This document shows positions 3,883 to 60,658 of a stretch of DNA of 64,000 nt, piece after piece; position 1 is the first letter of the stretch, and the number at the start of each line of letters is the position of its first letter. The translations under genes and the position numbers were made by a program. Source of the DNA: Brachyspira hampsonii (GTDB lineage: Bacteria > Spirochaetota > Brachyspiria > Brachyspirales > Brachyspiraceae); the NCBI RefSeq assembly GCF_002214805.1, contig NZ_CP019914.1, positions 1,426,001 through 1,490,000 on the forward strand, read 5' to 3'. The notes beneath the pieces are model-generated. The model made no database searches, was not told the DNA's origin, and saw nothing but the letters and a program-made list of their open reading frames with translations.

Positions 3883-4117
3883 AGGGAGGAAAGTGTAATT
3901 AAATTTAAAAAACTAATTACATACCCCGCCCTTTAGATTTTAGAATTCTATTTACAACTAATAAATATATTTAAATTTAAAGTTTAAATTATAAAAGCAC
4001 ACCCACCCTAGCTGTGTTTAAATTTAAATTTTTTTTAACGCACGATAAATGCATTTATATATATTATTAAAATTGTAATTGAAATATTTTTATATTTTAA
4101 ATTTTATTTACCGTGCG
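3883..4117. repeat. Modular intergenic repeat, copy a (A'-A-B-C-C')
   Basis: This convergent intergenic region (symporter and ftsQ ends) carries box A' (gggagga, 3883-3889), A (ccccgccc, 3924-3931), B (cccaccc, 4002-4008), C (CGCACG, 4039-4044) and C' (ACCGTGCG, 4110-4117). Spacing is A to B 78 bp, B end to C start 31 bp, and C to C' 79 bp overall. The same boxes at the same spacing recur at six other sites in the window. The DNA between boxes is AT-rich and differs between copies. It is not a gene. Confidence 0.75.
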
Positions 4118-18530: not shown

Positions 18531-19277
18531 TTATTTTCCATCTTTATATTCTCTAATTATCCCTCTAACCCTTATTGTAAGTCCGTAAACTTTCTGTTCT
18601 GCTATGATTACATCGAGAGGCACCTGATTATATTTATCTTTAGCAATCAATGCATCTGTTCCGTATTTATCTTTTTCATAAACTCTTATAGTAGATAATT
18701 TATCCCGCTCTAACTTTGTTTTTAAATCTTCTCCATTTTCTATAGTAAATCTTATATCTTTTTTGACATTTTTTCCTTCAAGCCAATTTACTTTAAATGT
18801 ACCGATATTTTTGTCTACGAAACGCATAAAGAATACAAGAGATAAAGCATCAAATGCCATACCTTCAAATTCTACTTTTTCATCAACCGTTCTCTTATCA
18901 TTGAATAAATAATAATTATCATAAAAAGTTAAAGATTCTCTATTAGTCCAATCTCCTTCCGAGGTATCTTTCTTAAGAACTATAGGTTTAAAATCATTGG
19001 TACTTATCCATGCCTCAAATATATCGCTTACTTTATAAACCCAATTAGCTGCTCCTGTAGTATAAACATGGGCATATAAATGGTATGCTGGTACTCCGTT
19101 TACATTACTTATCGCAAGAACTTTGGCTTCAAGCGTACCGACTTTTCCGCTTATATTAAATTCCGGAACCTGTGCTAAAACATCATACTTTATATATTCA
19201 CCTACTTTAAATGTCTGATTGTATCCGAAAACTATATTAGAAATCAATACCATTATGATAAAAATGTACTTCTTCAT
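18531..19277 (-). CDS. Exported DUF3108-like protein
   Basis: A 248-residue protein with a cleavable signal peptide (MKKYIFIIMVLISNIVFG) and a mature domain rich in beta strands. VGEYIKYDVLAQVPEFNISG, DIFEAWISTNDFKPI and the late VPLDVIIAEQKVYGLTIRVRG resemble the DUF3108 family of periplasmic or outer-membrane-associated proteins of unknown function. The divergent upstream region holds intergenic repeat copy b. Confidence 0.7.
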   Translation of the reverse strand: MKKYIFIIMVLISNIVFGYNQTFKVGEYIKYDVLAQVPEFNISGKVGTLEAKVLAISNVNGVPAYHLYAHVYTTGAANWVYKVSDIFEAWISTNDFKPIVLKKDTSEGDWTNRESLTFYDNYYLFNDKRTVDEKVEFEGMAFDALSLVFFMRFVDKNIGTFKVNWLEGKNVKKDIRFTIENGEDLKTKLERDKLSTIRVYEKDKYGTDALIAKDKYNQVPLDVIIAEQKVYGLTIRVRGIIREYKDGK

Positions 19278-19421: not shown

Positions 19422-19735
19422 CCCCGCCCTCTATGCTTTTTATTTTATTTTGAAATTTCTAATTTCTACCTTTTATATTGTCAAATTAGAAATAAAGGCA
19501 CCCACCCTGCTTTATTTTGAATTTATTGCCTCCTAAACCGCACGCAGAATAAAATTTTTAATATATGATTATTTTGAAATTATAATTAAAACAATAAATA
19601 AAAGCTCATTTACCGTGCGTTAAATAATTTTTTAAATCTAATCAATACTAGGGCGGGCATGCTTTTTTAAAATTAAGCAAAATATATAAATGATGCCGTC
19701 ATTTGAAATGAATGCAAAAAACCTAAAGGGCGGGG
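19422..19735. repeat. Modular intergenic repeat, copy b (complete A-B-C-C'-B'-A')
   Basis: A full 314-bp copy with mirror-symmetric boxes: A ccccgccc 19422-19429, B cccaccc 19501-19507, C CGCACG 19539-19544, C' ACCGTGCG 19612-19619, B' gggcggg 19651-19657 and A' gggcgggg 19728-19735. B to C and C' to B' gaps are the same on both sides, as are the outer arms (78-79 bp). Interior sequences of the two arms are only weakly complementary. It fills the divergent region between the DUF3108 and EamA genes. Confidence 0.85.
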
Positions 19736-22144: not shown

Positions 22145-23305
22145 ATGAAAAAGTTTTTATTAACTGTAATGGCTATTTTAACGGTAGCTAGCGGATCAGT
22201 GTTTGGTATGTATGGTGCGGATAATACTTGGCTGTTCTTCCTTATACATGGCAACCAATTAAGAGCTAGAATGAATCAGTTCGGATTCGTTTTAGGAAAC
22301 GGCACTATCAAAGGTACTTTCGGTTTTAAAGCTAATACTCTTATTAATGGAAACATTTTGAGTACAGGCAGTAAAGACAACAAAAATCCATTAGATGCTA
22401 CTATTTCTGCCGGTATAGGATACACTGGAGACGGCTTCGGAATAGGTGTTGGTTATAACTATACTTATGCTACTACTGTAAATAATGCTAGTACTAGCTC
22501 TAAAGGAATAAATACTCATACTCCTGTAGTAACTATGAATTTCCTAAATAATAATTTGAGAATAGCATTGCCTGTAAGCATAGCAATAGAGAATAGTATA
22601 GGAGCTTCTGGAGCATTAACCGATAGAAAAGATTATTTGGGCTTAAGCATACCTGCTCAGATAAGATATTATACAGGAATAGATGCATTTAACTACATAA
22701 GATTTGAATTTAACTACGGATTAAATAGATATAATGGCGTGGAGGCTGACAATACAACTACAAAATATGAAGCACAAACTATAAGTTTCCAATTAAGACT
22801 TCATTTCTTAAATACAGTTATAGGAAATAATGTAACTGTAAATCCATTCTTAAGAATTGACTTTGCTTCTACTATAGGTGCTAAAGGAAAAGCCAATGTA
22901 AACTTCCCTGCCAATTTTGCATTTGACGGAAGACTTACAGCTTGGGCTGCAAATGCTTGGGCTGATGATCCAAACAGCATTTATGAAAGAGAAGCTTATG
23001 ATTTAAAAATCATACCTAGCATATCTTTAAGTGTTAATACAGACATTATCAATTTAATATTTGAACCTGGTTTAGGATACAGAATACAAGATGACGGAAT
23101 TAGAGGAAGCAAACTTACTCATTCATTATATTGGCAGGCTTACGGAGAAATTTATATAAGACCTGTTCAGGATCTTGAATGGTACTTTGAAATGGATGTT
23201 AATAACGGCGTACCTAAACTTCAAGGAAATCCAGTTGGTAATGGAGTACCTGTTGTATTCGGAGCTAATACAGGTATAACTTGGTATTTACCTGCTTTAA
23301 ATTAA
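22145..23305 (+). CDS. Variable surface protein, Vsp family, copy 1
   Basis: A 386-residue outer-membrane-type protein. The signal peptide MKKFLLTVMAILTVASGSVFG is followed by the family start MYGADNTWLFFLIHGNQLRARMNQFGFVLGNGTIKGTFGF, then alternating aromatic/glycine-rich strands and a terminal TGITWYLPALN with aromatic near the C-terminus, as in beta-barrel surface proteins. It is the most divergent member (IHGN, LPALN rather than VHGN, LPAFN). In Brachyspira hyodysenteriae Vsp proteins are major membrane antigens encoded in tandem sets. TTTAGGAGAAAAT precedes ATG 22145. A terminator follows at 23339. Confidence 0.93.
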   Translation: MKKFLLTVMAILTVASGSVFGMYGADNTWLFFLIHGNQLRARMNQFGFVLGNGTIKGTFGFKANTLINGNILSTGSKDNKNPLDATISAGIGYTGDGFGIGVGYNYTYATTVNNASTSSKGINTHTPVVTMNFLNNNLRIALPVSIAIENSIGASGALTDRKDYLGLSIPAQIRYYTGIDAFNYIRFEFNYGLNRYNGVEADNTTTKYEAQTISFQLRLHFLNTVIGNNVTVNPFLRIDFASTIGAKGKANVNFPANFAFDGRLTAWAANAWADDPNSIYEREAYDLKIIPSISLSVNTDIINLIFEPGLGYRIQDDGIRGSKLTHSLYWQAYGEIYIRPVQDLEWYFEMDVNNGVPKLQGNPVGNGVPVVFGANTGITWYLPALN

Positions 23306-23338: not shown

Positions 23339-23367
23339 AGGGGGGCTTTAAGCCCTCCTTTTTTATT
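23339..23367 (+). terminator. vsp1 terminator
   Basis: AGGGGGGCTT pairs with AAGCCCTCCT across a 2-nt loop and is followed by T6. The same GC-rich hairpin follows every vsp gene in the array. Confidence 0.85.
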
Positions 23368-23420
23368 GGTTATTTATAATTTTTTTCAATAGGCTTACAA
23401 AAAATTCTTACCATTAGGCT

Positions 23421-23463
23421 TATTTCGTTAAAAATGTTTGTTTAACTAGAGTGGGCGGGCGGG
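23421..23463 (+). repeat. vsp1 downstream hairpin and G-run (gggcgggcggg)
   Basis: GTTAAA/TTTAAC bound a short loop (atgtttg) just before three G3 tracts at 23453-23463. The same hairpin-plus-G-run block follows the other vsp genes. Further on, 23550-23570 reads tttacctgcttta, a relic of a vsp 3' end. Confidence 0.75.
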
Positions 23464-23844
23464 CTAATTTGAGCTATAAAAAATTTTAGGCTTTATTTTT
23501 ATATTAAGCAGTATTTCTGTATAATTAAAACTATACCAATATAACTTAATATTTACCTGCTTTATAAAGTGTAATTAAATCATAAATAACTAATTTTTAA
23601 TATTAGTATGCTTTAAAAAGCCGCTTTTTTATTGCAAAAACAATTATTAATAACTATAACATAATTAATACAGATCATTAATTTAATTAAATATCATCAA
23701 AGTAATATATAATAAAATTTAAAAATTCATAAAAATAAAAATCATAATTATACAGTTTTTAGAAAAATTCATAATTTTTTATTAAAAAACTATGTAAATA
23801 TGTATTTATATGATGATTTTTTTATATAATTCTGTTTATATGTA

Positions 23845-23965: not shown

Positions 23966-25102
23966 ATGAAAAAGGTTTTATTAACCGCTATGGCTTTATT
24001 AACCATAGCAAGTGCATCAGTGTTTGGTATGTACGGCGACAGAGATTCTTGGATCGACTTCTTAGTACATGGTAATCAGTTAAGAGCTAGAATGGATCAA
24101 TTCGGATTCGTTTTGGGCAACGGTACTATTAAAGGTACTTTCGGCTTCAGATCTCAAGCTGCTTCAACAGCATTAGGAAACATACTTACAACAGGTGCTA
24201 CAGGCGATGTTAACCTAACATCAACTATTTCTGCAGGTATAGGCTACACTTCTGAGCCTTTCGGTATCGGTCTTGGTTATAATTACACTTTCATAAATAA
24301 CAAATTAGGCGTTCATACCCCTGTACTTATGATCAATGCTTTAAATAACAATTTAAGAATAGCTGTTCCTCTACAAATAGCTGTTACTGATAATCCTTTT
24401 GGTAGTTTATTACCTCAAACTTATAATGTATCAGATTATTTAGGAATAAGCACTGATGTTCAAATAAGATACTATACAGGAATAGATGCTTTCAATGCTA
24501 TAAGAATATACTTCAAATACGGACAATCCGGATTTAAAGTATCAGATCCTACTGGTGTTGCTCCTAATAGTGAAGCTTTTGCTCAGTCAGTTGGATTTGA
24601 AGCTAGATTCTATTTCTTAAATACTCCTGTTGGAAATGTAACTATCAATCCTTTTGTTAAAGTTGCATATAACACTGCTTTATATGGATCAGCAAGACAA
24701 GTTAGAGCAGGAGATATTGTTTATAATGCAATTAATAATGGTCAACTTGTGTGGGGTGATAAAGATGTTAAATGGGAAAAAAATCCTTATGATGTAACTG
24801 CTCAGGTTGTATTAGGAATCACTGCTAACAGCGATATAGTATCTCTTTATGTTGAGCCTTCTTTAGGTTATAAAGCTTTATATACTGGAAAAGCACAAAA
24901 TGCTGTTGATTCTAAAGTACAGCATGGATTAGCTTGGGGAGCTTATACAGAACTTTATGTAAGACCTGTTCAAGACTTAGAATGGTACTTCGAGATGAAT
25001 GTTAATAATGACGGTTACGGAAATCCTTCACAGGCTTACAACCTTCCTGTATACTTTGAAACTACTACAGGTATAACTTGGTATTTACCTGCTTTCAATT
25101 AA
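23966..25102 (+). CDS. Variable surface protein, Vsp family, copy 2
   Basis: A 378-residue Vsp protein with signal peptide MKKVLLTAMALLTIASASVFG, then MYGDRDSWIDFLVHGNQLRARMDQFGFVLG. The middle (about 130-270) is the variable part; the core RYYTGIDAFNAIRIYFKYGQSG and the C-terminal DLEWYFEMNVNNDG to TGITWYLPAFN are shared with copies 3 to 5. It is likely an exported outer-membrane surface antigen. The leader is about 86 nt, with a promoter at 23845 and TTTAGGAG before ATG 23966. Vsp2 and Vsp4 share the promoter/leader type; Vsp3 and Vsp5 share another. Confidence 0.95.
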   Translation: MKKVLLTAMALLTIASASVFGMYGDRDSWIDFLVHGNQLRARMDQFGFVLGNGTIKGTFGFRSQAASTALGNILTTGATGDVNLTSTISAGIGYTSEPFGIGLGYNYTFINNKLGVHTPVLMINALNNNLRIAVPLQIAVTDNPFGSLLPQTYNVSDYLGISTDVQIRYYTGIDAFNAIRIYFKYGQSGFKVSDPTGVAPNSEAFAQSVGFEARFYFLNTPVGNVTINPFVKVAYNTALYGSARQVRAGDIVYNAINNGQLVWGDKDVKWEKNPYDVTAQVVLGITANSDIVSLYVEPSLGYKALYTGKAQNAVDSKVQHGLAWGAYTELYVRPVQDLEWYFEMNVNNDGYGNPSQAYNLPVYFETTTGITWYLPAFN

Positions 25103-25124: not shown

Positions 25125-25152
25125 AAGGGGGGCTTTAAGCCCTCCTTTTTTA
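25125..25152 (+). terminator. vsp2 terminator
   Basis: AGGGGGGCTT/AAGCCCTCCT hairpin with a T-run, as after vsp1. Confidence 0.85.
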
Positions 25153-25213
25153 TTGGCTCTTTATAATTTTTTTTCAATAAACTTATAAAAAAATTCTTGC
25201 CTTTAGGCTCATT

Positions 25214-25248
25214 TAGTTAAAAATGTTTGTTTAACTAGGGCGGGCGGG
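25214..25248 (+). repeat. vsp2 downstream hairpin and G-run
   Basis: TAGTTAAA (25214-25221) and TTTAACTA (25230-25237) form a perfect 8-bp stem immediately followed by GGGCGGGCGGG (25238-25248). Downstream, 25335-25360 (tttaccgtctttaaattaatt) resembles the last codons of a vsp gene, a remnant. Confidence 0.8.
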
Positions 25249-25461
25249 CTAATTTAAGCTATAAAAAATTTAGAATTTAGTTTTATATTAAGCTGTATTT
25301 ATCTATACTTTTCAACTATTAAAGGTATTACTTAATATTTACCGTCTTTAAATTAATTAGATAAATTTAAATGGTGATTTAACGACCTGTTTTTTATTTG
25401 CATTTTTTAATCAAATTTTAAATACTTTTTACAGTAAAGTAAATTAAATGAAAATTATATA

Positions 25462-25529: not shown

Positions 25530-26624
25530 ATGAAAAAACTTTTATTAACAGCTGCTGCCATATTAAGCATAATAAGTGCATCAGCATTCGGTATGTACGG
25601 AGATCAGGACGACTGGATTGATTTTCTTACAGACGGAAATCAGTTCAGAGCGAGAATGGACCAATTCGGATTCGTTTTAGGAAACAATACTATCAAAGGT
25701 ACTTTCGGTCTTAGATCCCAAGCGGCAATAACTTTATTGGGAAGTATAATATCTGGAGAAACTGACAATGTATCACTTAATTCAACTATTTCTGCAGGTA
25801 TAGGCTACACTTCTGATATTTTTGGTATAGGCGTTGGTTATAATTTTACTTATTATAACAGCACTTTAGGTGTTCATACTCCTGTACTTACTATTAATGC
25901 TTTAAATAATAATTTAAGAATAGCTATTCCTATACAAATTGCTGCATCAAAAAATCCTTTTGGAAAAGGCACTGAAAATCTATATAAGGATTATTTGGGA
26001 ATAAGCACTGATACGCAGATAAGATATTATACAGGCATAGATGCTTTCAATGCTATTAGAATATACTTCAAATACGGACAATCCGGATATAAAAATGTTG
26101 CAAACAATTCAGATATGTTTGCTCAGTCAGTTGGATTTCAAGCAAGATTTTATTTCTTAAATACTCCTATTGGAAATGTAACAATTAATCCTTATGTTAA
26201 AGTAGAATACAACACTGCTTTAATTGGTAATAATACAATGGTTAGAGCAGGAGACTCTCTCATGAACACACTATACACACCAAAAGATACTAAATGGGAT
26301 AAAAACCCTTATGATGTAACTGCTCAGGCTGTATTAGGAATCACTGCTAACAGTGATATAGTATCTCTTTATGTTGAGCCTTCTTTAGGATACAGAGCAG
26401 TATACGGAGGAAAAGCACAAAATGCTGTTGATTCTAAAGTTCAGCATGGATTAGCTTGGGGAGCTTATGCCGAGCTTTATATAACACCTGTTGAGGATCT
26501 TGAATGGTATTTTGAAATGGATGTTAATAATGATGGTTTCGGAAACCCTTCACAGGCTTCCAGTCTTCCTGTATACTTTGAAACTACTACAGGTATAACT
26601 TGGTACTTACCTGCTTTCAATTAA
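25530..26624 (+). CDS. Variable surface protein, Vsp family, copy 3
   Basis: A 364-residue Vsp protein: signal peptide MKKLLLTAAAILSIISASAFG, then MYGDQDDWIDFLTDGNQFRARMDQFGFVLGN and the family C-terminus TGITWYLPAFN. It is closest to Vsp2 in the second half (KNPYDVTAQAVLGITANSDIVSLYVEPSLGYRA). ATG 25530 is preferred because the in-frame ATG at 25515 overlaps the GGAG ribosome-binding site (25517-25520). It has a short leader with no stem-loops, unlike vsp2 and vsp4. Confidence 0.94.
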   Translation: MKKLLLTAAAILSIISASAFGMYGDQDDWIDFLTDGNQFRARMDQFGFVLGNNTIKGTFGLRSQAAITLLGSIISGETDNVSLNSTISAGIGYTSDIFGIGVGYNFTYYNSTLGVHTPVLTINALNNNLRIAIPIQIAASKNPFGKGTENLYKDYLGISTDTQIRYYTGIDAFNAIRIYFKYGQSGYKNVANNSDMFAQSVGFQARFYFLNTPIGNVTINPYVKVEYNTALIGNNTMVRAGDSLMNTLYTPKDTKWDKNPYDVTAQAVLGITANSDIVSLYVEPSLGYRAVYGGKAQNAVDSKVQHGLAWGAYAELYITPVEDLEWYFEMDVNNDGFGNPSQASSLPVYFETTTGITWYLPAFN

Positions 26625-26658: not shown

Positions 26659-26687
26659 AAGGGGGCTTTAATGCCCTCTTTTTTTGG
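26659..26687 (+). terminator. vsp3 terminator
   Basis: AGGGGGCTTTAATGCCCTCTTTTTTT hairpin, equivalent to those after the other vsp genes. Confidence 0.8.
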
Positions 26688-26738
26688 CATTTTATAATTT
26701 TTTTTTCAATAGACTTATAAAAAAATTCTTAGCTTTAG

Positions 26739-26786
26739 GCTTATTTAGTTAAAAATGTTTGTTTAACTAAGGGGTGGGCTGGCGGG
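26739..26786 (+). repeat. vsp3 downstream hairpin and G-rich run
   Basis: The TAGTTAAA/TTTAACTA stem is followed by GGGGTGGGCTGGCGGG (26771-26786), an imperfect four-tract G run. Confidence 0.7.
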
Positions 26787-26867
26787 ATAGCTATAAAAAA
26801 TGTTAGGCTTTATTTTTATATTAAGCCTTATTTCTGTATACTCTTTTAAGCTGCTAAAGGCATAACT

Positions 26868-27145
26868 AACATTACCTGCTTTCAATTATTAGAAATTAAG
26901 CAGAGAATATATATATAATTGGTTTTAAGTCTTCCTTAATATTAATTATTATAAAATTAACTATAGTATATAATGAGACATCTTTTTTATTGGATTTTTA
27001 TAATTTTTTTAATAGGCTTATAAAAAAATTATTATCTTTAGGCTCATATAGTTAAAAAATATTTGTTTAATTAAATGGAAGTATAATTAAAACTATATGC
27101 TCTATTTCATATTAAGCAGTGTTTTAAAATATTAAAGACATATTT
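26868..27145 (+). repeat. Degenerate second copy of the vsp 3' end and downstream block
   Basis: attacctgctttcaattattag (26868-26889) encodes the LPAFN-stop end of a vsp gene but has no gene body in front. It is followed by a worn copy of the downstream block, including tagttaaaaaatatttgttta near 27050 without its G-run. This indicates a deleted or recombined vsp copy. From 27146 to 27455 I see only AT-rich DNA without a gene. Confidence 0.65.
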
Positions 27146-27484: not shown

Positions 27485-27501
27485 GAAATTGTTGGTATGA
27501 C

Positions 27502-27762
27502 ATAGACATTAGAAAAAAAGATTGCTTATAATGTCTATAACCAATGTTTGGAACAATAAAGATCCTCTAAATCCTTATTATTCCCAACTAACCACACTAG
27601 TAAAAGCAGCATAATTTTTCTGTTAGTTAACTGTTTTTACGGAGAATAAAGATCCTCTAAATCTTATTATTCTCACTGATTTTTTATAGTCCGTTAGAAT
27701 TAAGCTTAAAGGTTCTAACGCATTCGGAAACAATAAAGATCCTCTAAATCTTTGTTGTTTCC
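27502..27762 (+). promoter_or_regulatory. Structured vsp4 leader RNA: six stem-loops, three with an invariant loop
   Basis: H1 27502-27511/27529-27538 (ATAGACATTA/TAATGTCTAT). H2 27550-27559/27575-27584. H3 27586-27592/27622-27628 (AACTAAC/GTTAGTT). H4 27641-27649/27664-27674. H5 27692-27699/27713-27720 (CGTTAGAA/TTCTAACG). H6 27726-27738/27750-27762 (13 bp, one G.U). H2, H4 and H6 enclose the same 19-nt core AATAAAGATCCTCTAAATC (27555, 27645, 27732) on stems of different sequence: the stem changes but stays paired, while the loop does not change. The loops are complementary to the vsp2 leader. Confidence 0.8.
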
Positions 27763-27832
27763 TAAATTATTTTTGGAGTTACTGCTCATAAAGAGTATTA
27801 ACTATATATAAAAAAATTTAGGAGAAAAAACG

Positions 27833-29038
27833 ATGAAAAAAGTTTTATTGACAGCTATGGCTTTATTAACTATAGCTAGTGCATCTGCTTTCGGTATGTA
27901 TGGCGACAGAGATTCTTGGATTGACTTTTTAGTACATGGTAATCAATTAAGAGCTAGAATGGATCAATTCGGATTTGTTTTGGGCAACGGTACTATTAAA
28001 GGTACTTTCGGCTTCAGATCTCAGGCTGCAACAACTGCATTAGGAAACATACTTAGAACAGGTAATACAGGTGCTGTAGATTTAACAACAACTATTTCTG
28101 CTGGTATAGGCTACACTTCTGAGCCTTTCGGTATAGGTTTAGGCTACAACTATACTCATATACATGACAGATTAGGTGTTCATACTCCTGTACTTATGAT
28201 TAATGCTTTAAATAACAATTTAAGAATAGCTGTTCCTGTACAAATAGCTACTTCTCATAATCCTTTAAATAAGATTGCTTATAATGGTGCTCCAGATAAC
28301 ACTGAAAAAGATTATTTAGGAATAAGTACTGATATTCAAATAAGATACTATACAGGAATAGATGCTTTCAATGCTATAAGAGTATATTTCAAATATGGAC
28401 AAGCTTCATACAAAAATAGAGTTACTACAGATCCTGAAACATATTCTGATGTTATGGCTCAGTCAGTTGGTTTTGAAACTAGATTCTATTTCTTAAATAC
28501 TCCTCTTGGAAATGTAACTATCAATCCATTCCTTAAAGTTGCTTTCAATACTTCTTTAAAAGGAAAAGCAACAGATAATCAAGTTAGAGCTGGCGGTGTT
28601 GGAGATGGTACAATTACAGGTGGCTATTATAGTTACAGCTATAACGATTATTCTGAAAAATATGAATGGGAAAAAAGCCCTTATGATGTAACTGTTCAAG
28701 CTGTATTAGGAATAACTGCTAACAGCGATATAGTAACTCTTTATGTTGAGCCTTCTTTAGGCTATAAAGCTACTTACAGTGGAAAATCTAAATATACTTA
28801 TACTGTTGCTGGTGAGACAAGAACTACCACAAGTGATGATCCTAAAGTAATACATAACTTAGCTTGGGGAGCTTATACAGAACTTTATATAAGACCTGTT
28901 CAAGACTTAGAATGGTACTTCGAAATGGATGTTAATAACAATACTGATTATGCTATTGGTAATGATACTTACAATGGTGTTCCTGTTAAATTCGCAGCTA
29001 CTACAGGTATAACTTGGTACTTACCTGCTTTCAATTAA
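27833..29038 (+). CDS. Variable surface protein, Vsp family, copy 4
   Basis: A 401-residue Vsp protein, the longest intact copy. The signal peptide MKKVLLTAMALLTIASASAFG and the first about 60 residues are almost identical to Vsp2. Extra length lies in surface-type loops near residues 240-275 (GVGDGTITGGYYSYSYNDY) and 325-345 (threonine-rich). The C-terminus is TGITWYLPAFN. It is likely an outer-membrane surface antigen. TTTAGGAG lies 10 bases before ATG 27833. It is expressed behind the long structured leader. Confidence 0.95.
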   Translation: MKKVLLTAMALLTIASASAFGMYGDRDSWIDFLVHGNQLRARMDQFGFVLGNGTIKGTFGFRSQAATTALGNILRTGNTGAVDLTTTISAGIGYTSEPFGIGLGYNYTHIHDRLGVHTPVLMINALNNNLRIAVPVQIATSHNPLNKIAYNGAPDNTEKDYLGISTDIQIRYYTGIDAFNAIRVYFKYGQASYKNRVTTDPETYSDVMAQSVGFETRFYFLNTPLGNVTINPFLKVAFNTSLKGKATDNQVRAGGVGDGTITGGYYSYSYNDYSEKYEWEKSPYDVTVQAVLGITANSDIVTLYVEPSLGYKATYSGKSKYTYTVAGETRTTTSDDPKVIHNLAWGAYTELYIRPVQDLEWYFEMDVNNNTDYAIGNDTYNGVPVKFAATTGITWYLPAFN

Positions 29039-29815
29039 TTTAGAAAGTTAACTAGAGAATATATATAACTACGAAGGGGGGCTTTAATGCCCTCCTTTTT
29101 TTATTGGCGTTTTATAATTTTTTTTCAATAAACTTATAAAAAAATTCCTGCCTTTAGCTTATTTAGTTAAAAATGTTTGTTTAATTAAAGGGTGGGCGGG
29201 CGGGCTAATTAAAGCTATAAAAAATGTTAGGCTTTACTTTTATATTAGTCCGTATTTCTACTGCGGTATGATTTAATCTGCTTTCTATTTTAGGTATTAA
29301 CTAGAGAATATATGATTTACAAGTGTGAATTTAAAAACTCCTTTCTATTAGCATTTATAATTATTTCAATAACCTTATAAAAAAATTCCTACCTTTAGGC
29401 TCATTTAGTTAAAAATGTTTGTTTAGCTAAGGGGTGGGCGGGATAATTAAAGCTATAAAAAATGTTAGCCTTTATTTTTATATTAAGCCGTATTTCTACT
29501 GCGGTATGGTTTAATCTGCTTTCTATTTTAGGTATTAACTAGAGAATATATGATTTACAAGTGTGAATTTAAAAACTCCTTTCTATTAGCATTTATAATT
29601 ATTTCAATAAACTTATAAAAAAATTCTTAGCTTTAGCTCATTTAGTTAAAAATATTTGTTTAACTAATGGGTGGGCGGGCGGGATAATTAAAGCTATAAA
29701 AATGTTAGGCTTTATTTTTATATTAAGCCGTATTTCTACTGCGGTATGATTTAATCTGCTTTCTATTTTAGGTATTAACTAGAGAATATATAATTACAAG
29801 GTGGCTTTAAGCATC
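29026..29815 (+). repeat. Tandem about 239-bp repeats, each opening with a vsp 3'-end remnant
   Basis: Units start at 29026 (the true vsp4 end), 29278, 29516 and 29756 (partial), with periods of 252, 238 and 240 bp. Each later unit opens with ctgctttctattttaggtat, a decayed form of the vsp end ctgctttcaattaatt. Each complete unit then holds the TAGTTAAA-type hairpin, a G-run, and a tail around tgttaggctttatttttat. GGGTGGGCGGGCGGG occurs at 29190-29204 and 29669-29683, and GGGGTGGGCGGG at 29431-29442. A vsp terminator is at 29074-29107 in the first unit only. The 29278-29951 stretch contains no gene. Confidence 0.8.
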
Positions 29816-29951: not shown

Positions 29952-31104
29952 ATGAAAAAAATTTTATTAACCGCTATAGCTCTATTGACTATGGCAAGTG
30001 CATCAGCATTCGCTATGTATGGCAGAGGTGATTCATGGATTGACTTTTTAGTACATGGCAACCAATTCAGAGCTAGAATGGACCAAATAGGATTTGTTTT
30101 AGGTAATAATACTATTAAAGGTACTTTTGGTTTTAGAGCTAATTCTATTAACTTAAATAATTGAGGCAATATACTTAGCGGTAATACCGGAAGTGTTAAA
30201 TTAGATTCAACTATTTCTGCTGGTATAGGCTACACTTCTGAGGCTTTTAGTATAGGTGTTGGTTATAACTATACTTTGGCAACTGATAATTTGGACGACA
30301 GATATATAGGCGTACATACTCCTGTACTTATGGTTAATGCTTTAAATAACAATTTAAGAATATCTATACCTATACAAGTAGCTGTAAAAGATTATGGTTC
30401 TGGTAATAATAAAGCAACATATACAGGCGTAGCTTTCAATAATATACAGTTAAGATACTATACAGGCATAGATGCTTTCAATGCTATAAGATTATATTTA
30501 TATTATAGAAATTCTACACTTAAATTTCATGATATTACTTTTAATTCAGAAATTTTTGGCTTCCAAACAAGATTCTACTTCTTAAATACTCAAATAGGAA
30601 ATGTAACTGTTAATCCTTATTTGAAAGTTGCATTTGATACTGCTTTAAGAGGCGGACTAGCTAAATCTGGTGTCTACACATATACAATTGAGGATTTTGG
30701 TAACTTGTTTATGGAAAATAGTATGAAACAATCAGTTATATATGACAAAAGTGCTTATAAAGTATCAGTTGCTGCTGTATTGGGTATAACTGCTAACAGT
30801 GATATAGTTACTTTATGTTGAACCTTCTTTAGGTTATACTGCTACTTATGATGGAAAACTAAGAGCTAACGCTTTTGGTGTTCCTACTGATCCTAAAGTA
30901 ATACATAGCTTAGCTTGGGGTGCTTATACAGAGCTTTATATCAGACCTACTCAAGACTTAGAATGGTACTTTGAGATGGATGTTAATAACAGCGGAACAA
31001 AACAAGGTTATACAGATGCAAACGATAATTTTACAGGAAGCGGTATTCCTGTATACTTTGAAACTACTACAGGTATAACTTGGTATTTACCTGCTTTCAA
31101 TTAA
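29952..31104 (+). pseudogene. Variable surface protein, Vsp family, copy 5, broken
   Basis: The frame reads as a full Vsp protein (signal peptide MKKILLTAIALLTMASASAFA, MYGRGDSWIDFLVHGNQFRARMDQ ... TGITWYLPAFN), but TGA at 30162-30164 stops it after 70 codons. Near 30815 two bases are missing relative to the other copies (ACTTTATGTT against ACTCTTTATGTT), which shifts the TLYVEPSLGY segment. The region between and after both lesions remains clearly vsp-like and has its own unique middle sequence. It could act as a donor of variable sequence. Terminator at 31139-31167. Confidence 0.9.
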
Positions 31105-31138: not shown

Positions 31139-31167
31139 AAGGGGGGAATTAAAGCCCTCCTTTTTTA
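31139..31167 (+). terminator. vsp5 terminator
   Basis: AGGGGGGAATT/AAAGCCCTCCT hairpin with a T-run, a weakened version of the vsp terminators. Confidence 0.65.
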
Positions 31168-31307
31168 TTAGCCTTTATAATTATTTCAATAGGCTTATAA
31201 AAATTCCTACCTTTAAGCTCATTTAGTTAAAAATGTTTGTTTAATTAAAGGGCGTATAATGAAAACTACATGCTTTACTTTTATGTTTTTTTTAATATAA
31301 TATAATT

Positions 31308-32285
31308 ATGGACGGTTTCAAAAAATTAGAACAATTATTCAAAGAACCTATTACCATTGATAATATTAATAGGATTAATGACTGCTTTATACGATACTTA
31401 TTTTCTGCTGATGGTTCTGAAAGTATAGTGCTGAGCTTTATAAACTCTGTTATGAAAGATTTAGACTTTGAAACTTTCGTAAAAGTAGAAATATTAACCC
31501 CTTTCAGCCTCTCAAAATATTTAAAATCAAAAGAATCTATAATGGACATAAGATGCGTTACTGAAAGCGGAGAGGTTGTAATTATAGAGATACAGCTTCA
31601 AGGAAATAATGAATTTATTTACAGAAGTTTATTTTATTGGGCTAAAGGCTATAGTGTGATGCTTGATAAGGGTGAAGATTATAATAAACTTCAGGCTTTA
31701 ATCATCATTAATATTTTAGATTTTAAATTAATAGAAAATATTGATGATATACATACATGCTATGTGCTTAAAGAAATAAAGCATAATAATATTTTAACAG
31801 ACCATTGTCAAATACATTTCCTAGAGCTTCCAAAGTTTAGTAATAATACCGATATAAAAAATATAAAGAAAGAATTTTTGTCTTGGATAAAATTTTTTAA
31901 GGGGGAAGATATGAAAACATTATTAAAAGAAGATACAGTTTTTGAATTAGTAAAAGAGAAATCAGAATCTTTTCTTTGCGATAATCCATTAATCGATACC
32001 TACAAACGAAAAGAGATAGATGAATATTTTAATAAAAGAATGCTTGACTATGAAATAAAAAACGCTATGAATAAAGGAATTCAGCAAGGTATAGAGCAGG
32101 GCATAGAAAAAGGTATAAAGCAAGGTATAGAAAAAGGCATAGAACAGGGTATAGAACAGGGCATAGAGCAAGGTATAGAAAAGAGTAAAATTGAAATAGC
32201 AAGTAATCTCAAAAAATCAGGAATAGATATTAAAATAATAAATGAAAATACAGGATTAAGCATAGAGCAAATAGAAAAGCTATAA
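31308..32285 (+). CDS. Rpn-family recombination-promoting nuclease / PD-(D/E)XK nuclease-transposase
   Basis: A 325-residue protein of the Rpn/YhgA-like (PDDEXK-family) group. NDCFIRYLFSADGSESIVLSFINSVM is the N-terminal signature; the nuclease core is MDIRCVTESGEVVIIEIQLQ (Asp and Glu-x-Gln), followed by FIYRSLFYWAKGYS. Rpn proteins are DNA nucleases that stimulate RecA-independent recombination in E. coli. The C-terminus has nine GI(E/Q/K)(Q/K) tetrapeptide repeats (about residues 256-291), as in many Rpn proteins. An in-frame ATG at 32067, just before the repeats, could give a short C-terminal form like the intragenic antitoxins described for E. coli RpnA. It directly follows the vsp array. 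Confidence 0.88.
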   Translation: MDGFKKLEQLFKEPITIDNINRINDCFIRYLFSADGSESIVLSFINSVMKDLDFETFVKVEILTPFSLSKYLKSKESIMDIRCVTESGEVVIIEIQLQGNNEFIYRSLFYWAKGYSVMLDKGEDYNKLQALIIINILDFKLIENIDDIHTCYVLKEIKHNNILTDHCQIHFLELPKFSNNTDIKNIKKEFLSWIKFFKGEDMKTLLKEDTVFELVKEKSESFLCDNPLIDTYKRKEIDEYFNKRMLDYEIKNAMNKGIQQGIEQGIEKGIKQGIEKGIEQGIEQGIEQGIEKSKIEIASNLKKSGIDIKIINENTGLSIEQIEKL

Positions 32286-35771: not shown

Positions 35772-35817
35772 AAATTGATTATGATGCTTTAAACTTAAAA
35801 AAATCTTGGGTGGGTGC

Positions 35818-36010
35818 TAATAAATTCTAATTTAACAATAAAAAAATAATGATTTTGATTGCAGATTAAAATTATAAATATATAGGGTGGGCAAATGTAA
35901 TTAAACTTTAAAACTTAATTACATACCCCGCCCTTTATATTTAAAAGCTATATTTACAATTAAGAAATTTATTAATATTTAAAGTTTAAATTATAAAAGC
36001 ATGCCCGCCC
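35818..36010. repeat. Modular intergenic repeat, copy c (B'-A'-A-B)
   Basis: Boxes B' gggtggg 35818-35824, A' gggtggg 35885-35891, A ccccgccc 35926-35933 and B cccgccc 36004-36010; C boxes are absent. A' and A are joined by an inverted repeat (atgtaatta ... taattacat), giving a hairpin with a G/C clamp. It lies between convergent gene ends. Confidence 0.75.
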
Positions 36011-48985: not shown

Positions 48986-49180
48986 CGCACGGTAAACTAA
49001 TTTATCTATATAATGAAATAAATTTTTATTATATGCCTCTATGCTAAAAATTCATTCACCGTGCGGTATATAATTTACAATTTTAAAAAAATCTTGGGTG
49101 GGCATGCTTTTATAATTTAAATTATGAAGAATTATTTAATAAGACATTTTTAATTAAAGCAGCAAATATAAAGGGCGGGT
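48986..49180. repeat. Modular intergenic repeat, copy d (C-C'-B'-A')
   Basis: Box C CGCACG 48986-48991 and C' ACCGTGCG 49058-49065 span 80 bp; B' gggtggg is at 49096-49102 and A' gggcggg at 49173-49179, at the standard distances of 30-31 and 77 bp. This right-hand half-element lies between tandem + strand genes (aldo/keto reductase and malic enzyme). Confidence 0.8.
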
Positions 49181-51727: not shown

Positions 51728-51965
51728 GGTAGGGTATGTAATTTAAGTTTAAAAAATTTAATTACATTTGCCCACCCTTTATATTTTTTATTTAATTTGT
51801 AATTTTTGTACTATATTTCTTTTTGACTTTAAACTGTTATTATAACACCCGCCCAAGATGTATGAAAATTCTTTACTTTACTCAACGCACGAATAGAAAA
51901 ATTAAAAATATAGATTTAGTTAAAATTCAAATTTTATTATATTAGTAAATTTCATTTACCGTGCG
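51728..51965. repeat. Modular intergenic repeat, copy e (A'-A-B-C-C')
   Basis: Degenerate A' (ggtaggg, 51728-51734), A gcccaccc 51770-51777, B cccgccc 51848-51854, C CGCACG 51886-51891 and C' ACCGTGCG 51958-51965. A to B is 78 bp, B to C gap 31, and C to C' 80 bp. It is the same arrangement as copy a, between convergent gene ends. Confidence 0.8.
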
Positions 51966-53425: not shown

Positions 53426-53735
53426 CCCCACCCTCTAGGCTTGATAACTCGTATTAGTATATTTTATTTTTACTATATAATTAACATCATAAGAAATTTC
53501 AGCACCCACCCAAGTTGATTCTAAATTTGCAGCTATATACCCGCACGCAGAATAAAATCATGAATATAAATTAAATTATCAATCGAAATTAAATTATATA
53601 TAAAATTCCGCTCACCGTGCGATTAATAGACTTTAAATATAGAATAAAGTTGGGCGGGCATGCTTTTTCTAAATTAGCTTTAAATATAATAAAGCTTTTA
53701 ATTGTAAATAAAGTTAACAAAAATAAAGGGCGGGG
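53426..53735. repeat. Modular intergenic repeat, copy f (complete A-B-C-C'-B'-A')
   Basis: A full 310-bp copy: A ccccaccc 53426-53433, B cccaccc 53505-53511, C CGCACG 53542-53547, C' ACCGTGCG 53614-53621, B' gggcggg 53652-53658 and A' gggcgggg 53728-53735. The left and right arms are equal within 2 bp. It occupies the divergent region between serS and the alcohol dehydrogenase gene. Confidence 0.85.
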
Positions 53736-60242: not shown

Positions 60243-60658
60243 GGGCGGGTGCTTATAAATTCTAATTAAGCTGTAAAGATAATAAATGTAGAAAAGCAAA
60301 ATAAAGCTATAAATTTTAAAGGGCGGGGTATGTAAATAAAGTTTTAAAATTAATTACATCTGCCCACCCTTTAGGCTTTCAATATCATTAAGTCATTTCT
60401 ATATTATTTTTCTTTTTTGTTTTCAGCTGTTTTTTTTGCTTCCCACCCAGAATTTTTTTAAAGTTGTTATGCATATACCGCACGCAGAGTAAAATTTAAA
60501 ATATATGCAGATTTAAAATTATAATTTAAATTATATAAAAATATTCATACACCGTGCGTTATAAATATAACTTGGGCGGGTGCTTATAAATTCTAATTAA
60601 GCTGTAAAGATAATAAATGTAAAAAATCAAAATAAAGCCTTAATTTTAAAGGGCGGGG
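60243..60658. repeat. Modular intergenic repeat, copy g (B'-A'-A-B-C-C'-B'-A')
   Basis: The longest copy: B' gggcggg 60243-60249, A' gggcgggg 60321-60328, A gcccaccc 60362-60369, B cccaccc 60442-60448, C CGCACG 60479-60484, C' ACCGTGCG 60551-60558, B' gggcggg 60574-60580 and A' gggcgggg 60651-60658. The B'-A' segment occurs twice almost unchanged (60243-60328 and 60574-60658), and the C'-to-B' gap is 15 bp rather than 30-31, as if a segment was duplicated with loss of 15 bp. Confidence 0.85.

Follow-up and report, generated by a model that had tools for sequence, protein, structure and literature searches.

Compact G-Runs Punctuate a Tandem vsp Array

In Brachyspira hampsonii, genes for variable surface proteins (Vsp) stand in a tandem array and are followed by short, compact runs of guanines that resemble G-quadruplex (G4) motifs. 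Does this locus carry a signal devoted to Vsp recombination, as the initial annotation proposed by analogy with the pilE G4 of Neisseria, or does the motif belong to something more general? We addressed this question in a window of 64,000 nucleotides (G000:C1:1426001-1490000), the whole stretch of DNA that was analysed, which lies within a 3.19-Mb single-contig genome.

The array comprises four intact genes on the forward strand, vsp1 (22145..23305), vsp2 (23966..25102), vsp3 (25530..26624) and vsp4 (27833..29038), which match the profile of the Serpulina variable surface protein family (Serpulina_VSP; PF05540) above cut-off (E 1.1e-150 for vsp1 and E 1.1e-110 for vsp4). Each has its own start and its own intrinsic terminator (23339..23359, 25125..25147, 26659..26680 and 29073..29098, respectively; all +). 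At the end of the array lies vsp5 (29952..31104, +), a pseudogene with an in-frame TGA stop codon and a frameshift, which is likewise followed by an intrinsic terminator (31139..31162, +). A gene of the Rpn family/PD-(D/E)XK nuclease type (31308..32285, +; TIGR01784, PF12784; E 6.6e-42 and 3.2e-41), whose TIGR01784 match is above cut-off, closes the array.

A pattern search placed the canonical four-tract sequence GGGTGGGCGGGCGGG exactly where it had been reported, at 29190-29204 and 29669-29683 (both +), and also recovered the three-tract or imperfect relatives at 23453 (GGGCGGGCGGG), 25238 (GGGCGGGCGGG), 26771 (GGGGTGGGCTGGCGGG) and 29431 (GGGGTGGGCGGG). The two canonical sites are the only matches to (GGGN)3GGG in the window, and the pattern was absent from 100 dinucleotide shuffles, in keeping with the earlier statement that such runs are very unlikely to arise by chance. 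What is rare beyond chance is the compact, short-loop pattern and not the G4Hunter score; the latter (1.36-1.44 for the window G-runs) is not unusual for this base composition and was rejected as evidence of rarity. In the ViennaRNA gquad MFE predictions, a G4 is present for the two sequences with the canonical motif (modules 4 and 6, see below).

The G-Runs Are the 3' End of a Conserved Intergenic Module

The G-runs form the 3' end of an intergenic, Brachyspira-specific module of ~85 bp, in which an A-tract is followed by a conserved AT-rich core (GGCTTATTTTGTTAAAAATGTTTGTTTAA), 3-9 linking bases and the G-run itself, usually with three to four G3 tracts arranged as (GGGY)3-4 or GGGYGGG-TTN-GGGTGGG. 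When the vsp unit is compared with unrelated loci, homology extends over ~60-100 bp and ends at the G-run or a few bases beyond it. Eight copies of the module, seven clear and one decayed, are present in the tandem vsp array of the window, all on the forward strand. Modules 1 to 3 follow vsp1 to vsp3 and occupy 23390..23466 (core 23417-23445; G-run 23453-23463; profile match G000:1449394-1449472, E 4.9e-17), 25179..25251 (core 25206-25234; G-run 25238-25248) and 26711..26789 (core 26738-26766; G-run 26771-26786); the G-runs of the first two have three G3 tracts each, and that of the third is imperfect. Module 4, at 29129..29207 (core 29156-29184; E 1.3e-18), follows vsp4 and carries the canonical motif at 29190-29204. 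Module 5 (29371..29445; G-run 29431-29442 with three tracts) lies in a ~240-bp tandem duplicate that also holds a decayed vsp 3' end, and module 6 (29608..29686), with the canonical motif at 29669-29683, lies in a second tandem duplicate. Two copies had been overlooked by the initial annotation, namely a decayed module without a G-run at 27017..27078 (84% over 62 bp; profile E 5.2e-7), and module 7 at 31189..31250 (E 2.0e-11), which follows the vsp pseudogene ~60 bp upstream of the Rpn-type gene and has a single G3 tract remaining. Four G3 tracts are retained at only two of the seven clear modules.

Because all of these copies are homologous, and those at 29190, 29431 and 29669 are ~240-bp tandem duplicates, the modules of the array do not count as independent occurrences. 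The three 240-bp repeats hold a decayed vsp 3' end, remnants of a similar kind follow other modules, and the sequence after several array modules resembles the rpn upstream region, as would be expected if the ancestral unit had been vsp-module-rpn; the window modules were copied along with the vsp array.

The claim that a TAGTTAAA/TTTAACTA hairpin precedes each G-run stood in part: the stem is perfectly paired (8/8) at only three of the seven window copies, and a single mismatch interrupts it at the remaining four. The core is near-invariant between species. Across 50 copies from the genus, conservation is about equal in the AATGTTTG loop and in the stem, whose outer pairs are not kept and change without compensation. 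We therefore rejected a conserved hairpin; the module has the look of a sequence that is recognised as such, and not of a conserved RNA or DNA fold. Searches against Rfam gave no match at the gathering score in the window, none at E<=1 for one spacer of a restriction-modification (RM) island, and sub-threshold matches only near a terminator. Nor is the module an intrinsic terminator, given that it lacks the combination of GC stem and T-tract and that the true terminators lie upstream of it. An integron attC site was dismissed, since the inverted repeats read GTT..AAC and not AAC..GTT. A mobile element with defined ends seems less likely as well: neither terminal repeats nor a target duplication or clean empty site was found against module-free orthologous spacers, which were too diverged for a close comparison.

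Distribution and Loop Designs of the Module

In a genome collection holding one genome per species, a strict search for the core with three mismatches allowed found 53 places in 15 of the 26 Brachyspira genomes, and the reversed control found none. A sequence-only profile model built from 38 copies gave about 110 matches, a few of them weak, in 20 of the 26 genomes of the genus and none in the 172 non-Brachyspira genomes of our 198-genome sample of the phylum (spirochaetes). On this sample, the module appears to be genus-specific.

The canonical four-tract G4 motif is present in 31 of 51 distinct copies, and at least three tracts are present in 41 of them. Two main loop designs can be distinguished, a GGGTGGGCGGGCGGG-like form with loops of 1-1-1 and GGGYGGGTTNGGGTGGG with loops of 1-3-1. 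Four-tract forms include GGGTGGGCGGGCGGG and GGGCGGGTTTGGGTGGG; several of the vsp-associated copies have three tracts.

Gene Neighbours and Polarity

The module is intergenic and nearly always lies just 3' of a gene transcribed in the direction of its own G-rich strand. Of 25 loci, 23 have such a same-strand upstream gene (binomial p 2e-5 against an expectation of 0.5, and 0.009 against 0.7), and the strand of the downstream gene is unbiased (16/27). A hand count, made on contigs that differ in completeness, places ~30 of roughly 44 module loci beside vsp, RM or rpn genes, and some 12-13 are without an evident variable gene, with the reservation that neighbours were assigned via ORFs and a small query set, so that some of these "other" loci may be misfiled. 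The initial annotation had tied the motif to vsp genes and had named, as a finding that would speak against its view, a motif equally common elsewhere; this is largely what we see, as the module occurs away from vsp at least as often.

Apart from vsp, three classes of loci recur. In class (i), the module lies at a syntenic hot spot beside an HD-domain gene and an RND-type transporter gene. The occupants of this spot are RM genes of type IIG (Eco57I; PADLOC REase_MTase_IIG, E 1.3e-183) together with further defence genes such as Gabija (GajA, E 6e-190; GajB, E 1e-104). Since about a dozen species have inherited one and the same site, the RM-hot-spot loci are not independent of each other. A GajA/GajB pair stands beside a module copy at L069:12435-15270, and a DarTG pair beside a copy at another locus (L199:7868-9570). 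Class (ii) consists of type I loci, in which the module is found directly 3' of hsdS in two species and beside hsdS in L125 and L203. Class (iii) is formed by rpn-type nuclease genes, with four places in one genome.

An Rpn-type gene adjoins not only the window module but about ten module loci in other species, and in one genome (G021) the vsp-module-rpn unit is found twice in tandem. The core, sometimes without the G-run, is placed directly upstream of several rpn genes. In the B. hampsonii genome studied here this applies to only two of 22 rpn genes (the window rpn and one other, without G-run), and a role of the module as a general upstream element of rpn genes was rejected on this count. 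No two-ended element was found at the rpn-adjoining modules.

Probable Traces of Exchange at RM Islands and Type I Loci

Many Brachyspira species have, at this one hot spot, type IIG RM islands that combine a full gene with headless target-recognition (TRD) cassettes; they were observed at L069, L196, L197, L198, L202, L209, L211-L214 and L255. They are laid out as a full-length RM gene followed by headless cassettes with a TRD and a shared C-terminus, and all headless cassettes start near QYKINCFDW..NPPY, ~45 residues before NPPY. The islands are likely to be specificity-switching. No description of TRD cassettes or type IIG cassette islands in Brachyspira was found in our literature search.

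Sequences shared between full genes and cassettes were found in several species. The G018 full gene has its TRD start, VDSEEMVKSSPLERNYCSSNY, in common with a headless cassette located ~8 kb from it, at 92% identity over 1,390 bp, and this cassette begins shortly beyond two modules. The TRD of the G015 full gene matches a headless cassette of G025. In G016, two different cassettes each match a separate part of the full gene, and the spacer repeats that bear the module stop where cassette homology begins. Because TRDs are common to full genes and to headless cassettes just beyond the module, recombination at the RM islands is supported. At the type I loci, interspecies identity is 91-97% for hsdM and hsdR, in contrast to a variable hsdS; there, a 232-bp block at 97% consists of the hsdS 3' end plus the module and ends at the G-run.

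A (CACAG)n tract is positioned right after the start codon of the type IIG RM gene at L069:9229 and L196:4742, the two genomes having 14 and 8 repeats, which suggests on/off phase variation of these two full RM genes.

The vsp Genes Show Little Sign of Frequent Conversion

All five vsp genes of the array, the pseudogene included, have a module on their 3' side. The five dispersed vsp genes of the same genome are without it (the best core match has at least 9 mismatches), as are the majority of vsp loci in other species. The module lies 100-127 nt after the stop codons of vsp1-4, past the terminator, and none was found upstream of vsp1. Since a strong intrinsic terminator stands before each of the modules that follow vsp1-4 and the pseudogene, the modules are probably outside most vsp mRNA. 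Promoter-like sites amounted to 67, against 60.4 +/- 7.9 expected from shuffles, and on this count an sRNA promoter of the pilE kind does not stand out from chance.

An arrangement of one expressed locus with truncated silent donors is absent from the vsp genes and present at the RM islands. In a windowed comparison with B. hampsonii (L081), vsp1, vsp3 and vsp4 had their positional counterpart as nearest relative in almost all windows (89, 84 and 88% overall, respectively). Only vsp2 departs from this pattern, its 5' end being nearest to vsp4 and its 3' end nearest to vsp3, and it looks slightly mosaic. Frequent gene conversion would erase orthology, and the positional orthology that has been kept argues against it; in this, the vsp genes are unlike a rapidly converting system, and gene conversion among them was set aside as a weak signal seen in vsp2 only.

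Upstream of vsp4, at 27500-27770 of the window, we noted GATCCTCTAAAT repeats in a hairpin-like arrangement (AATAAAGATCCTCTAAATCTTTGTT), one of which has a terminator-like score; this stretch is possibly the vsp4 regulatory region.

A Possible Boundary Signal and Its Rivals

The module, its boundaries, distribution, polarity and gene neighbours as well as the shared TRDs are direct observations, to which we add, by inference, folding of the G4 in cells and a causal role for it. We favour, tentatively and at somewhat less than an even chance, a reading of the module as a genus-specific recombination or cassette-boundary signal at the junctions of exchangeable units, that is, of vsp-module-rpn units, of type IIG RM units with headless TRD cassettes, and of type I hsdS genes. 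A G4 formed on the opened G-rich strand, together with the shared spacer sequence, would stall DNA transactions and supply homology, and exchange and unequal crossing-over would thereby be favoured at module junctions. At the RM islands, cassettes would in this way more easily supplant the TRD of the expressed gene; for the vsp array, the outcome would mainly be tandem duplication or deletion of whole units and not frequent segmental conversion. The module may thus mark recombination boundaries in general, without being specific to Vsp. The evidence for exchange consists of sequence correlations, and recombination and shared repeats can be associated in either causal direction. Four G3 tracts at only two of the seven window modules, the loci without an evident variable gene, the common origin of the RM-hot-spot loci and the mostly stable vsp orthology also count against this reading. 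A more far-reaching version, in which the AT core fused to the pilE-like G4 serves several unrelated gene families (type IIG TRD cassettes, hsdS and vsp arrays) as a common signal for programmed diversification, possibly through a trans-acting nuclease such as the Rpn-type proteins encoded next to some copies, strikes us as unlikely.

Since recombination-prone regions gather and copy repeats, a strong rival is that the module is a passive, REP- or MITE-like intergenic repeat, tolerated between accessory genes and multiplied with vsp and RM duplications, its G-run being incidental; we judge this somewhat improbable. The module is indeed multi-copy and extragenic and occurs at unrelated loci, those in the window have plainly been duplicated together with vsp units, the 240-bp tandem repeats included, many copies are decayed, and the genome harbours a much larger GGGYGGG repeat family and yet another G4 class (see below). 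A merely tolerated repeat would, however, not readily account for the strong polarity to the upstream gene, the near-invariant core across species, the four-tract potential retained in two loop designs and the repeated presence at variable-gene loci, and the ends expected of such an element, terminal repeats or target-site duplications, were not found. A further possibility is that the module acts in transcription as a 3'-end or regulatory element duplicated with genes, either a backup terminator or insulator or, by rpn, an upstream operator. In its favour, module and upstream gene share a strand at 23 of 25 loci, the distance to each of vsp1-4 is 100-127 nt, and the core, at times without G-run, directly precedes several rpn genes. 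This explanation appears decidedly doubtful to us, as a strong intrinsic terminator already stands before every intact-gene module of the vsp array, the hairpin is without a following T-tract and its pairs do not covary, and the core is upstream of only two of the 22 rpn genes in this genome.

Least probable, and in our estimate very improbable, is the pilE-like Vsp antigenic variation envisaged at the outset, with each G4 starting gene conversion among vsp genes. The pilE precedent (PMC3547852, PMC10094033), the canonical G4 at two copies, the vsp pseudogene in the array, and a nearest relative of vsp2 that changes from vsp4 at the 5' end to vsp3 at the 3' end all speak in its favour; against it stand the position of the module 3' of vsp and past the terminator, its absence from the dispersed vsp genes and from most vsp loci of other species, the kept positional orthology of vsp1, vsp3 and vsp4, and promoter-like sites not beyond chance. 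Of the original proposal, the idea of pilE-like recombination survives in altered form, in that a module with a pilE-like G4 marks several variable or duplicated loci and signs of cassette exchange are seen at RM islands. The part that is specific to Vsp is not supported, given dispersed vsp genes without the module, a module 3' of vsp and stable orthology.

Very few bacterial loci have a firmly established link to G4-triggered programmed recombination. With ~100 natural copies of the module in two loop designs, plus decayed versions, the generality of a G4-triggered mechanism would become testable by comparison. The type IIG RM cassette islands, which are likely phase-variable, could have an influence on phage resistance and on gene transfer among Brachyspira.

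Other G-Rich Repeats

A larger dispersed family, GGGYGGG-N(60-90)-AAAGGGYGGG, reaches 120 copies by a strict search of this genome, against 1 in the control, and is present in 23 of the 26 Brachyspira genomes. In the window it occurs at 3924-4008, 19422-19735, 35808-36010, 49096-49179, 51771-51854, 53426-53735 and 60243-60658. Its units are arranged head-to-head around a CGCACGGT...ACCGTGCG centre, alternating with a tail-to-tail orientation as a hairpin, with a period of ~345 bp, and they are dense at about 1.1-1.97 Mb. The family is BIME-like, and our literature search found no description of it. A third four-tract G4 class, (GGGY)3GGG followed by CAGAATAAAT-like sequence, is represented by single intergenic copies between ordinary genes, in G000:C1 near 1684202, 2044616, 2118266, 2215012, 2259867, 2398267 and 3101648 (loci L072, L103-L107 and L109); one L085 copy suggests that this class is conserved in another species.

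Comparison with Known Systems

We found no paper on G-quadruplex DNA in Brachyspira. The pilE G4 of Neisseria gonorrhoeae is GGGTGGGTTGGGTGGG (PMC10094033), and an RM-island copy of the Brachyspira module, GGGTGGGTTAGGGTGGG (L069, module at 18876), differs from it by one extra middle-loop base. Both share a compact four-tract G3 motif with 1-nt outer loops, and the Brachyspira RM islands, too, contain truncated silent copies of an expressed gene. The Neisseria G4 was concluded to form only during transcription of an adjacent sRNA, whose transcript starts in the G4 (PMC3547852), whereas no sRNA promoter was seen beyond chance at the Brachyspira modules. Moreover, the pilE G4 lies upstream of the expressed promoter, but the Brachyspira module lies 3' of the upstream gene, is present in many copies per genome and at several gene families, and has its G4 fused to a conserved AT core that has no pilE counterpart.

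Borrelia vlsE is likewise a variable surface-antigen locus of a spirochaete with G-clusters on the coding strand (PMC11499132). The Borrelia vls regions are without compact canonical G4 arrangements (PMC11499132), whereas the compact Brachyspira G4 lies between genes and belongs to a dispersed module. The Rpn proteins of Escherichia coli (PMC5350276) belong to another Pfam family, PF04754, than the window gene (TIGR01784/PF12784), and most Brachyspira rpn genes are without the module.

With REP/BIME and MITE elements, the module has in common that it is short, multi-copy, extragenic and genus-restricted; it differs from them in that it has no covarying conserved palindrome and no detected terminal repeats or target duplications, is polar to the upstream gene and bears a G4 at one end. 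RM systems that switch by TRD exchange resemble the Brachyspira islands in their headless cassettes and in the shared 5' and 3' blocks around variable TRDs, and the Brachyspira islands are set apart from them by cassette spacers that carry the G4 module.
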